A stretch of DNA of 64,000 bases from Litchfieldia alkalitelluris. Its GTDB lineage: Bacteria > Bacillota > Bacilli > Bacillales > Salisediminibacteriaceae. The position numbers were made by a program, and so were the translations under genes. Under the pieces are notes generated by a model. It worked only from the letters and a program-made list of their open reading frames with translations, made no database searches and had not been told where the DNA came from. Of this stretch, positions 14,667 through 61,887 are shown one piece after another (positions within the stretch are counted from its first letter, which is position 1; each line of letters starts with the position of its first letter). The stretch is from the NCBI RefSeq assembly GCF_002153425.1, contig NZ_KZ119600.1, forward strand, positions 2,593,920-2,657,919, in the 5' to 3' direction.

Positions 14667-14748
14667 TTCGGTAACTGGCTGGCATATCGTTTTGACTTAG
14701 CCCCTAAAGCTTTGCGTCCCATAGTTTCCTATGGTTTGCCTTTATCAT
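14664..14748 (-). ncRNA. Cyclic di-GMP-I riboswitch (GEMM-I)
   Basis: The minus strand carries the hallmarks of the class. AAAGGCAAACC opens the first hairpin, which closes with GGGACGCAAAGC. Then come GGGGCTAAG and a second hairpin with GCCAGCCAG and TTACCG. These are the most conserved bases of the aptamer and its tetraloop-receptor contact. It stands in the 5' leader of the Flp pilin and Tad assembly operon, which ties pilus production to the second messenger. Identification is from recalled consensus; a covariance-model search would settle it. Confidence 0.9.
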
Positions 14749-14796
14749 ATTTTTAAACAACGTTCGATGTCGTATTTTGTCGTTGTTTGTAATGCG

Positions 14797-45250: not shown

Positions 45251-46168
45251 GATCGGGTATGAGATTCTACTTTTCCTCATTCTCATACCTGATCGGCCCT
45301 TGATCGGGTATGAGATTCTATATTTCTTCATTCTCATACCTGATCGGCCCTTGATCGGGTATGAGATTCTACTTTTCTTCATTCTCATACCTGATCGGGC
45401 CTTGATCTGGTATGAGATTCCACATTTCTTCATTCTCATACCTGATCGGCCCTTGATCGGGTATGAGATTCTACTTTTCTTCATTCTCATACCTGATCGG
45501 GCCTTGATCTGGTATGAGATTCCATATTTCTTCATTCTCATACCTGATCTGCACTTGATCTGGTATGAGATTCCACTTTTCTTCATTCTCATACCTGATC
45601 GGGCCTTGATCTGGTATGAGATTATACATTTTCTCATTCTCGTACCTGATCGGGCCTTGATCTGGTATGAGATTCCACATTTCTTCATTCTCGTACCTGA
45701 TCGGCCCTTGATCGGGTATGAGATTCTATATTTCTTCATTCTCATACCTGATCGGGCCTTGATCTGGTATGAGATTCTACTTTTCTTCATTCTCATACCT
45801 GATCGCCCCTTGATCGGGTATGAGATTATACATTTTCTCATTCTCGTACCTGATCGAGCCTTGATCGGGTATGAGATTCTATATTTCTTCATTCTCATAC
45901 CTGATCGGGCCTTGATCTGGTATGAGATTCCACTTTTCTTCATTCTCATACCTGATCGGGCCTTGATCGGGTATGAGATTCTACTTTTCTTCATTCTCAT
46001 ACCTGATCGGGCCTTGATCGGGTATGAGATTCGGGTTTTCTTCATTCTCATACCTGATCGGGCCTTGATCGGGTATGAGATTCCACTTTTCTTCATTCTC
46101 ATACCTGATCGCCCCTTGATCTGGTATGAGATTCGGGTTTTCTTCATTCTCATACCTGATCAGCCCTT
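45251..46168. repeat. Array of 18 hairpin-forming 51-bp tandem repeats
   Basis: Eighteen units follow without interruption. Each holds a 14-base inverted repeat, GATC(G/T)GGTATGAGA and TCTCATACCTGATC, around a 16-base centre. The arms are almost invariant, while the centre varies among about seven types (for example TTCTACTTTTC, TTCCACATTTC, TTATACATTTTC, TTCGGGTTTTC). Because 51 is a multiple of three, both strands stay open for over 300 codons, but the frames lack start signals and are not genes. It lies between two minus-strand genes. Confidence 0.92.
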
Positions 46169-46205
46169 GATATCCATAACTCCTTAATTCACCTACTACA
46201 ATTCA

Positions 46206-46792: not shown

Positions 46793-47998
46793 ATGAAAAC
46801 AGAAGATAATAAACAAGAAGAAAAGTATAGTAAAGGATCCTTACTAGAAGTATTTTTAGTGGCTTTCAGGTTAGGATTGACATCCTTTGGAGGCCCCATC
46901 GCCCACTTAGGTTACTTCCATCATGAGTATGTCAGGAAACGAAAATGGCTAGATGAACGTAGCTATGCAGATTTAGTTGCGTTGTGTCAATTTTTACCAG
47001 GACCTGCAAGTAGTCAAGTAGGTATTGGTATTGGTGTTATACGCTCAGGATTATTAGGTGGGATTATGGCTTTTCTAGGCTTTACCCTCCCTTCTGTTTT
47101 GGCATTAACCATTTTTGCCCTATTTGTACAAGGTTTTGACATTAGTAGTGCTGGTTGGATACAAGGACTGAAAATTGTGGCTGTTGCTGTTGTTGCACAC
47201 GCCATTTTAGGTATGGCTTCAAAACTTACACCAGACAATAAAAGAAAAACGATCGCATTATTTGCAGTTATTATTACATTGTTGTGGCAAGCGGTCATAA
47301 CACAGGTCGTTATCATCGTTGCTGCTGGGCTCGTTGGTTTTTGGATATACCGAGAACAAAAAGCACCGGAAATATCACACATTCATGTACCAATAAGTAA
47401 GCGTTTTGCTGTCATTTGTTTATCCATCTTTTTCGGACTCCTTTTCCTGCTTCCTTTTTTAAGGGAATTGACGTCTATTCATTGGATTGCTATGTTTGAC
47501 AGCTTTTACCGAGCAGGATCCCTCGTATTTGGTGGTGGTCATGTTGTTTTACCACTTCTTGAGCGAGAAATCGTTCCAGTTGGTTGGATGACGGAAGAAG
47601 CATTTTTAGCAGGATATGGGGCTACACAAGCCGTACCTGGACCGCTTTTTACTTTCGCAGCATACTTAGGGGCCATCATGAACGGTTGGGGAGGTGCTCT
47701 ACTAGCAACAGTAGCCATTTTCCTCCCAGCCTTCCTTCTTATTCTAGGGACACTACCATTTTGGGGTGCATTAAGAAGTAATCCACATATTCAAGGTGCT
47801 CTATTCGGAGTGAATGCGGCTGTAGTTGGAATTTTAGTTGCAGCACTCTATCATCCGATCTGGACTAGTTCCATATTATCACCTGTTGATTTTGCGTTAG
47901 CGGCTGTATTATTTGGAATGCTTGTGTTTTGGAAGTTACCACCTTGGACAATAGTTTTAGCAGGAGCAATCGGTGGAACCTTGATTAACTTGATATAA
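46793..47998 (+). CDS. chrA: Chromate transporter ChrA family
   Basis: A 401-residue two-domain CHR transporter with duplicated halves. The first has GLTSFGGPIAHLGYF and LPGPASSQVGIGIG. The second repeats VFGGGHVVLPLLEREIV and GYGATQAVPGPLFTFAAYLG. About ten helices are expected. Chromate efflux is the name-giving role; many homologues are untested. The gene stands alone and ends without a clear terminator before the phosphatase gene. Confidence 0.93.
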   Translation: MKTEDNKQEEKYSKGSLLEVFLVAFRLGLTSFGGPIAHLGYFHHEYVRKRKWLDERSYADLVALCQFLPGPASSQVGIGIGVIRSGLLGGIMAFLGFTLPSVLALTIFALFVQGFDISSAGWIQGLKIVAVAVVAHAILGMASKLTPDNKRKTIALFAVIITLLWQAVITQVVIIVAAGLVGFWIYREQKAPEISHIHVPISKRFAVICLSIFFGLLFLLPFLRELTSIHWIAMFDSFYRAGSLVFGGGHVVLPLLEREIVPVGWMTEEAFLAGYGATQAVPGPLFTFAAYLGAIMNGWGGALLATVAIFLPAFLLILGTLPFWGALRSNPHIQGALFGVNAAVVGILVAALYHPIWTSSILSPVDFALAAVLFGMLVFWKLPPWTIVLAGAIGGTLINLI

Positions 47999-48067: not shown

Positions 48068-48097
48068 ATATAATCACAATATTAAGGGCGTGTTCAA

Positions 48098-48532
48098 GTG
48101 GAAAATAAACAATATCATCATCTATTAGAGCGCATGTTCATTGGTGCTGCCGAAGATGCTATGTCTATGGTATCTGAGGAAAAAGCAAATGTAATCGTTG
48201 ACCTACGAAGCGAAGCAGAAAGTTGTTCCGTATCTGATCCAGAAGTCCAGTGTATTCGTGTTCCCATAACAGATGCCATTTCTGGTCAAAAAGAGGAACT
48301 TAAGCGAGCAATTGATACTGTTGTAGAAGCCTTTCATGCTGGAAAAGTAGTAGGATTTCACTGAGGTGGGGGAAAAAGCCGCGCAGGTAGCGTGGCAATA
48401 GGTGTACTTCTAACACTAGGAATATGTAATACTGTTGATAAGGGAGAACAATATATTCAGCAAATTCGACCACAAGTAAAGGTCCACCCCCTTTTAAAAG
48501 AGGAGCTTAGGAAGATATTCCCTTATTCCTAA
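48098..48532 (+). CDS. Tyrosine/dual-specificity phosphatase with UGA at the catalytic cysteine (candidate selenoprotein)
   Basis: The frame starts at GTG 48098 and reads as a bacterial dual-specificity phosphatase: MFIGAAEDA, VIVDLRSEAE and then KVVGFH. The next codon is TGA (48362-48364), residue 89. The frame continues unbroken for 55 further codons as GGGKSRAGSVAIGVLLTLG to TAA at 48530-48532. The motif is thus H-[UGA]-GGGKS-R-A, a perfect HCX5R signature with UGA in place of cysteine. A SECIS-like hairpin follows at 13 nt. Read through with selenocysteine it gives 144 residues. A TGC/TGT-to-TGA nonsense mutation is the alternative. Relatives known to me have ordinary Cys here. Confidence 0.75.
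48378..48396 (+). promoter_or_regulatory. SECIS-like stem-loop
   Basis: GCCGCGC and GCGTGGC form seven pairs, one of them G-U, closing the five-base loop AGGTA. The stem begins 13 nt after the UGA and the loop GG lies 21-22 nt after it. Bacterial SECIS elements need an apical loop with G in the first two positions 16-37 nt after UGA; E. coli fdhF has loop AGGUCU at a similar distance. The stem is far richer in GC than the surrounding gene. Confidence 0.7.
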
Positions 48533-48560
48533 TATGAATGGTTGATAACTTAACATTTAG

Positions 48561-48600
48561 GGACCCAAGTGTCTTCCCTATACTTGGGTCCTTCTTTTAA
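48561..48600 (+). terminator. Rho-independent terminator
   Basis: GGACCCAAGT pairs with ACTTGGGTCC and is followed by TTCTTTT. It ends the phosphatase transcript 30 bases past the TAA, which shows that the natural 3' end of the unit lies beyond the region after the UGA. Confidence 0.8.
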
Positions 48601-61619: not shown

Positions 61620-61887
61620 AAAATACAAAAAGGGCTACTCCTCCCCTAATAAAGGACGAGTAACCCGTGGTGCCACCTTTGTTCGCTATTAACGCGCTCA
61701 TTCCGTACAGAAAATATTTTCGATACGTAGTCTCTTTTATCGGTGAGACATCCGGCAAACCTACTAATCGTTCAGTTTACAAGCTCAGAAGCCCATTCAA
61801 CTTTATTATGCACTGATTCACACCAACCATCAGCTCTCTGTACCACACATAAAGTTTACTATTCTTCATCAAAGCTCTTGAAATATT
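61620..61887 (-). ncRNA. T-box leader (tryptophan)
   Basis: The minus strand holds AAAGGTGGCACCACGGG (61664-61680), the T-box that binds the tRNA acceptor end. The specifier loop reads GAATGGGC with codon TGG at 61793-61795, matching tryptophan. A terminator, TACTCGTCC/GGAGGAGTA with GGGTT/AGCCC and TTTTT, follows. Uncharged tRNA-Trp should permit trpS transcription. Confidence 0.95.

Follow-up and report, generated by a model that had tools for sequence, protein, structure and literature searches.

The selenoproteins characterised so far are mostly proteins of thioredoxin-like fold that carry a redox motif (PMC13188914). Table 1 of that paper (2026), in which the families credited to Haft and co-workers (its references 63 and 64) are included, holds 119 prokaryotic selenoprotein families or subfamilies, and no dual-specificity or tyrosine phosphatase stands among the entries of the table. 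The word 'phosphatase' has no occurrence in the text of the paper, and none in the consulted passages of the deep-Sep paper (PMC12013277). The GOS paper describes a PP2C-type domain fused to a selenocysteine (Sec) peroxiredoxin, which is a different thing (PMC2398784). Our literature searches, which covered titles and abstract openings among the matches listed and had most subscription papers outside their scope, returned no Sec phosphatase, and in NCBIfam (June 2026) the protein described here has a single match, far below the cut-off. The ars1 genes of Bacillus CDB3 include orf8, a putative dual-specificity phosphatase that confers arsenate resistance on E. coli but does not substitute for arsC, according to the passage of PMC4562236 that cites Zheng 2013; from its operon position, orf8 is probably a Cys-containing relative of the family described here.

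We analysed a 64,000-nt stretch of the Litchfieldia alkalitelluris genome (contig NZ_KZ119600.1, positions 2,593,920 to 2,657,919), referred to as the window, in which a sequence-only reading had picked out the frame of a dual-specificity phosphatase with TGA at the codon of its catalytic nucleophile. To that reading no Sec phosphatase was known among the bacterial selenoprotein families, and it left two options, a new selenoprotein class or a recent nonsense mutation. The features around the gene are the following.

48084 to 48088, forward strand: Shine-Dalgarno-like AAGGG, 9 nt before the GTG start (sequence inspection)
48098 to 48532, forward strand: candidate selenoprotein gene, 144 residues, dual-specificity-phosphatase-like, with a GTG start and a TAA stop
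48272 to 48274, forward strand: Asp59, which the window protein retains as candidate general acid (profile alignment to DUSP10, column counts)
48359 to 48382, forward strand: phosphate-binding loop (P-loop) H-U-G-G-G-K-S-R, residues 88 to 95, with H88, G91, G92 and R95 invariant
48362 to 48364, forward strand: UGA predicted to be read as Sec (residue 89), the catalytic nucleophile of HCX5R (homologue alignment)
48378 to 48396, forward strand: SECIS-like hairpin with a 7-bp stem and loop AGGUA, starting 13 nt after the UGA (pairing, folding, covariance)
48559 to 48593, forward strand: terminator-like hairpin past the full-length TAA (hairpin search)

The positions and counts given for the interruption, TGA at the nucleophile of H-U-GGGKS-R with 55 codons after it, were reproduced, and the TGA at 48362-48364, residue 89, is the only one in the frame from 48098 to 48532. 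A product ending at this codon would have 88 residues, the last of them the P-loop His, and would be without the remaining loop. The terminator that had been placed after the full-length TAA is matched by the hairpin at 48559-48593, which on its own is weak evidence, terminator-like sites averaging 1.4 per shuffled region. From the comparisons that follow, we consider it very probable that 48098-48532 is a selenoprotein gene in which Sec is inserted at the UGA at 48362, and the family it represents appears, as far as our searches go, to be undescribed.

The sequence-only reading had proposed looking for other genomes with UGA at this codon, and such genomes exist. Among 150 related genomes 33 have a homologue, 12 of which carry one internal TGA. 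Further draws of 397 genomes from the order, 398 from the phylum, 35 from the family and 398 from the class, which overlap each other and the initial set of 150, gave matches in 76, 12, 13 and 52 genomes, respectively. In total, 21 genomes, some of the window's order and some from outside it, carry the TGA form, at 22 loci, and at each locus it is the codon after the P-loop His; in the window's family 10 of the 35 genomes have it. Because the sole TGA match among the 398 genomes of the phylum draw was that of the window genome, the UGA form may not extend outside the class. Opposite the UGA of residue 89, all 49 Cys homologues have TGC or TGT.

Nineteen of the UGA copies are intact. The copy in genome G039 is a pseudogene with several frameshifts, the one in G021 is broken just after the UGA and has lost the hairpin, and G850 has a second UGA copy with a split close to the N terminus. 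Among the family matches listed, in-frame stops besides this TGA occur only in the G039 pseudogene, and in the matches read there is no TAA or TAG at the nucleophile codon. Searches of phages and viral contigs gave no match to the Sec form (88 pattern matches in one search are unconfirmed), while plasmid searches gave 44 and 43 records matching the family, of which six regions were opened, all with Cys forms. Five genomes (G018, G163, G926, G936 and G955) hold a Sec copy together with a second, stop-free copy, and the Sec and Cys forms are therefore not simple replacements of each other. A Cys-type domain is also seen in long open frames of 463-546 codons in G1002, G1026, G1152, G910 and G941, possibly as fusions with another domain.

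The genome encodes selA (C1:2555860-2556987), selD (C1:2558363-2559289), selB (C1:2568660-2570519) and, adjoining selB, a tRNA-Sec (C1:2571330-2571422), and the phosphatase gene lies at C1:2642017, about 70 kb from these sel genes. All four genes that the sequence-only reading had proposed to look for, selA, selB, selD and selC, are thus present, and the objection that the machinery might be absent therefore does not hold. In 14 well-known control genomes, selA, selB and selD each scored above the cut-off in 2 and tRNA-Sec in 5; the tRNA-Sec model is the least specific of the four, and its match in the window genome is the one that adjoins selB. The selD gene of this genome (locus L070) likewise contains an in-frame TGA, at 1531, in the motif GUGCKIG. 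By eye, CGCAG-GUG-CUGCG after that UGA resembles the apex of the phosphatase hairpin, about 11 nt farther from the UGA, but the computed fold of the stretch pairs differently.

Across genomes, the UGA form goes together with the Sec genes. A selA above the cut-off was found in 21 of 21 UGA genomes (16/16 plus 5/5), vs a full-length selA in 10 of the 21 Cys-only genomes of the 150-genome search, one of which (G005) is only 76% complete (p = 1.6e-4; the p values on sel genes and on the gene neighbours below ignore the relatedness of the genomes). Counting any selA match above the cut-off, weak partials included, raises the Cys-only figure to 13 of 21 (p = 0.003). For selB, 12 of 12 UGA genomes scored above the cut-off vs 10 of the 21 Cys-only genomes (p = 0.002), and with G021 added the former count becomes 13 of 13 (p = 0.0018).

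We turn to the RNA. The hairpin had been claimed to have a 7-bp stem, an AGGUA loop and a distance of 13 nt from the UGA, and coordinates and folding alike bear this out. The stem arms, 48378-48384 and 48390-48396, enclose the loop at 48385-48389, and this hairpin is precisely what the 46 nt from 48362 to 48407 fold into (-13.7 kcal/mol, z = -3.5); none of 200 dinucleotide shuffles is as stable. A spacing of 13 nt and a G-containing loop fit bacterial SECIS elements. All seven stem pairs form in 19 of 21 UGA forms and six of the seven in the other two, the broken 22nd copy (G021) being uncounted; in the first set of 15 UGA sequences (14 intact plus the G039 pseudogene), 14 had seven pairs and one (L078) had six. 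By contrast, the 38 Cys forms compared have 2-5 pairs, with a mean of 3.3. After synonymous recoding, carried out for each UGA gene, 3.2-3.4 pairs remain on average (p = 0.0005-0.0095 for the individual genes), and the mean fold z is -2.1 for UGA vs -0.5 for Cys sequences, with one UGA form (L126) at only -0.8.

The same constraint is visible in the choice of codons. The Arg codon is CGC in 21 of 21 Sec forms (15 of 15 in the first set) vs 8 of 49 Cys forms, and the Val codon is GTG in 20 of 21 (again 15 of 15 in the first set) vs 12 of 49, against a background, in long frames of the window, in which CGC makes up 7% of Arg codons and GTG 16% of Val codons. Past the stem, the codons of the Sec forms vary freely. 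The sequence-only reading would have counted it against a selenoprotein if the hairpin were conserved no further than the amino acids; the recoding test and the retention of rare codons show that conservation goes beyond them. The covariation it proposed to look for was found in part. One stem pair is A-U in 13, G-C in 7 and G-U in 1 of the 21 sequences, its 5' base deciding between Thr and Ala and its 3' base being a silent Ser position, but this is the only pair that changes on both sides, and three stem pairs are invariant. Over the 21 sequences 98.6% of cells pair, and 0 of 500 shuffles match that figure or the covariation score, while 491 of 500 reach the count of pairs changed on both sides together with the count of pair types; in the first 15 rows covariation was weaker, with 17 of 500 shuffles as high. 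By parsimony on a 19-row tree, the covarying pair accounts for four changes, with only two independent pairs on well-supported branches. A covariance model made from 15 sequences gives the window 73.6 bits (next best, 12.7), and it found the hairpin in six of six later loci, themselves obtained by protein search, at 60.7-67.3 bits (next best, 14.3). A chance hairpin is ruled out by the recoding test, the 0 of 200 shuffles and the model matches in later loci.

These observations bear on how the UGA should be read. A nonsense mutation in a Cys phosphatase, which would make the gene a young pseudogene with a fortuitous hairpin, takes only one base from TGC or TGT, and broken copies do occur in two other genomes; yet UGA stands at the same codon in 21 genomes with neither TAA nor TAG there in the matches read, the 55 downstream codons are conserved with rare synonymous codons kept, and selA accompanies the UGA in 21 of 21 genomes. 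We therefore reject this half of the sequence-only reading's alternative as barely credible, and a sequencing error is untenable when 21 genomes share the UGA at this position. It is only slightly less improbable that the UGA is read through without the Sec machinery, a near-cognate tRNA inserting Trp or Cys with the aid of the hairpin, or that the 88-residue product is functional. UGA is a leaky stop in bacilli, which would favour readthrough, but the UGA form is found only in selA genomes (21 of 21, vs a full-length selA in 10 of the 21 Cys-only genomes), the hairpin is SECIS-like in its spacing and its G-containing loop, and an 88-residue product would stop at the P-loop His without the rest of the loop. 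Insertion of Sec, and with it the option of a new selenoprotein class, is supported by the UGA in 21 genomes, the sel genes and the conservation of the hairpin at the RNA level. In the mechanism we propose, SelA, SelB, SelD and tRNA-Sec would decode the UGA at 48362, directed by the hairpin 13 nt downstream, to give a dual-specificity-phosphatase-like protein with Sec replacing the catalytic Cys.

Scanned against Pfam with C put for U, the window protein exceeded the cut-off for PF22785 (30.4 bits; cut-off 27), PF22784 (29.5; 27) and PF13350 (24.7; 22.2), and fell below it for DSPc (31.9; 33.5) and PF14566 (22.9; 27). The best PDB matches by sequence profile are dual-specificity phosphatases, DUSP10 first (E = 5e-9), and in the profile alignment Sec89 lies opposite the P-loop Cys of DUSP10. 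The family keeps H-x-X5-R, with UGA/Sec at the position of the Cys nucleophile of HCX5R, and H88, G91, G92, R95, D35 and R37 do not vary in the 19 intact Sec and 49 Cys rows compared. Cys occupies position 16 in 14 of the 19 intact Sec rows and in 0 of the 49 Cys rows, 48 of which have Gly. Position 59 is D in 11, N in 5, S in 2 and A in 1 of the Sec rows, vs D in 46 and E in 3 of the Cys rows. The window protein itself has D59 and lacks Cys16. The three Sec rows that have S or A at 59 all show D or E one residue earlier, a possible substitute for the general acid. The extra Cys and the frequent loss of the general acid in Sec forms suggest redox or oxyanion chemistry over ordinary phosphate-ester hydrolysis. 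An AlphaFold2 model of the window protein as a single sequence had a mean pLDDT of 47, too poor for use.

The gene immediately upstream in the window encodes a candidate partner.

46793 to 47998, forward strand: ChrA-type chromate transporter, 401 aa, 99 bp upstream of the Sec gene (PF02417, 263.5 bits)

Of 16 Sec loci, 9 have a ChrA homologue no more than about 2 kb from the Sec gene, vs 0 of 17 Cys loci (p = 3e-4), the latter hand-picked as 16 Cys matches from the 150-genome and order searches plus the G018 copy, and with six later Sec loci the comparison becomes 10 of 22 vs 0 of 17 (p = 0.002). The converse holds for arsC and other ars genes, which occur in 0 of 16 Sec stretches, each of 12-20 kb, vs 12 of 17 Cys stretches (p = 2e-5; with the six later loci, 0 of 22 vs 12 of 17, p = 2e-6). 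ChrA was not found near 12 of the 22 Sec loci (L075-L078, L081, L084, L126 and L186-L190), of which L186-L190 were searched for ChrA and ars genes only, with short stretches at L186 and L189 where contigs end. When the frames near 16 Sec loci were grouped, ChrA alone recurred in more than three loci; one group was present in three (L085, L126 and L127, the L126 member being a UvrD-like helicase) and the others in at most two. No shared neighbour was found for the seven ChrA-less loci L075-L078, L081, L084 and L126, and a scan of 20 neighbour proteins, the window's ChrA included, revealed no common partner for ChrA-less loci. On plasmids, the first five regions opened, from 44 matching records, are ars operons with the Cys form, and the sixth, from Citrobacter arsenatis, has a Cys form with ArsC about 2 kb away.

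Other elements of the window were noted in passing. Upstream of chrA, a 51-bp tandem array of 18.1 copies occupies 45251-46171, with both strands open (311 and 321 aa). On the reverse strand there are a c-di-GMP-I riboswitch at 14667-14750 (79.6 bits) and a T-box leader at 61649-61881 (133 bits).

Phylogenies in large part separate the two forms. One branch splits Sec from Cys in a 36-row tree (14 Sec, 22 Cys; support 96/88) and again in a 67-row tree (19 Sec, 48 Cys; 98/94), both built without the divergent Cys copy L086. Adding L086 (68 rows) makes two changes of the Sec label necessary, and a single Sec clade then has a p-AU of 0.0685; when five distant outgroup rows are included, the number of changes is three (p-AU 0.435). 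The window protein clusters with L186 and L187, beside Cys forms. The trees omit the broken L085 (G039), L129 (G021) and L191 (the second copy of G850) as well as duplicate Cys sequences, and, having no usable root, they are compatible with a change from Cys to Sec as well as with the reverse. L086, from G018, has no ars neighbours and sits on a long branch among Sec forms; it is possibly a Sec-to-Cys reversal, or else a long-branch or tree artefact.

Given the ars-operon Cys forms, the ChrA-flanked Sec forms, Cys16 and the variable general acid, we use 'phosphatase' as a label for the sequence family and its P-loop, the activity being predicted only. With ChrA beside Sec forms and ars genes beside Cys forms, the likeliest role for the Sec protein, which we favour tentatively, would be the handling of a toxic oxyanion such as chromate, or of a product formed from it. 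The P-loop (H-U-X5-R) would bind the tetrahedral oxyanion and the selenolate would attack it. In most members, a Cys16-Sec89 selenenylsulfide may then form and be recycled by a thiol system. We envisage recycling by Cys16 or by an outside thiol, with the enzyme acting as a partner of ChrA; the window protein has the Asp and is without Cys16. The most specific form of this proposal is that the protein is the first natural HCX5R member with a Sec nucleophile and acts together with ChrA, its substrate being chromate or a related oxyanion, which the selenolate would reduce or transfer, the Cys16 selenenylsulfide being recycled in most members. As a whole, this is rather unlikely to be right; if it is, a redox detoxification enzyme would have arisen from a classical phosphatase whose Cys relatives are at work in arsenic operons.

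Next in likelihood, and possible if doubtful, is a true phosphatase with Sec for Cys, which would hydrolyse a phospho-substrate, Sec raising its reactivity or allowing it to survive and recover from oxidation by chromate or peroxide. In its favour stand the invariant His, both glycines and Arg of the P-loop, the dual-specificity phosphatases that head the PDB sequence matches, and Asp59, which the window protein and 11 of the 19 intact Sec forms retain, with a preceding Asp or Glu that might serve in the S/A59 forms. It is harder to reconcile with the replacement of Asp59 in 8 of 19 intact Sec forms when 49 of 49 Cys forms have Asp or Glu, with Cys16 in 14 of 19 Sec vs 0 of 49 Cys forms, and with the probable Cys relative, CDB3 orf8, which is reported to give arsenate resistance without replacing arsC (PMC4562236).

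Whether the substrate is an oxyanion or a phosphoester, Sec in a phosphotransfer P-loop would widen nature's uses of selenium. A natural Sec/Cys pair within one enzyme family, with different operon partners, would also serve as a testbed for the advantage of Sec over Cys. Gene callers that stop at UGA would leave an 88-residue fragment, so that genes of this kind have likely been missed in databases.

Placed beside known systems, the locus resembles bacterial SECIS selenoproteins in having a UGA opposite the Cys of homologues, an in-frame hairpin downstream and selABCD in the genome. With dual-specificity phosphatases such as DUSP10 it shares the P-loop, the invariant Arg and, in the window protein, an Asp at the aligned general-acid column; it differs from them in having Sec for the catalytic Cys and in that the Asp is not kept across the Sec group. 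ArsC of the LMW-PTP fold likewise belongs to arsenic operons and is a small thiol enzyme with a P-loop, broadly similar in mechanism, but it is encoded by a separate gene beside the Cys homologues, and the window protein has no ArsC match in Pfam or NCBIfam. The arsenate reductases listed in Table 1 of PMC13188914 (TIGR00014 and NF041106) are other models, and the window protein matches neither in NCBIfam. Closest are the Cys proteins of ars operons, named 'dual specificity protein phosphatase family protein', on plasmids of Sporosarcina, Cytobacillus, Peribacillus, Paenibacillus and Comamonas. They are homologous to the window protein over nearly its full length, with about 42-45% identity, and differ from the Sec forms in their Cys nucleophile, the lack of a hairpin, their ars neighbours and the Gly at position 16.
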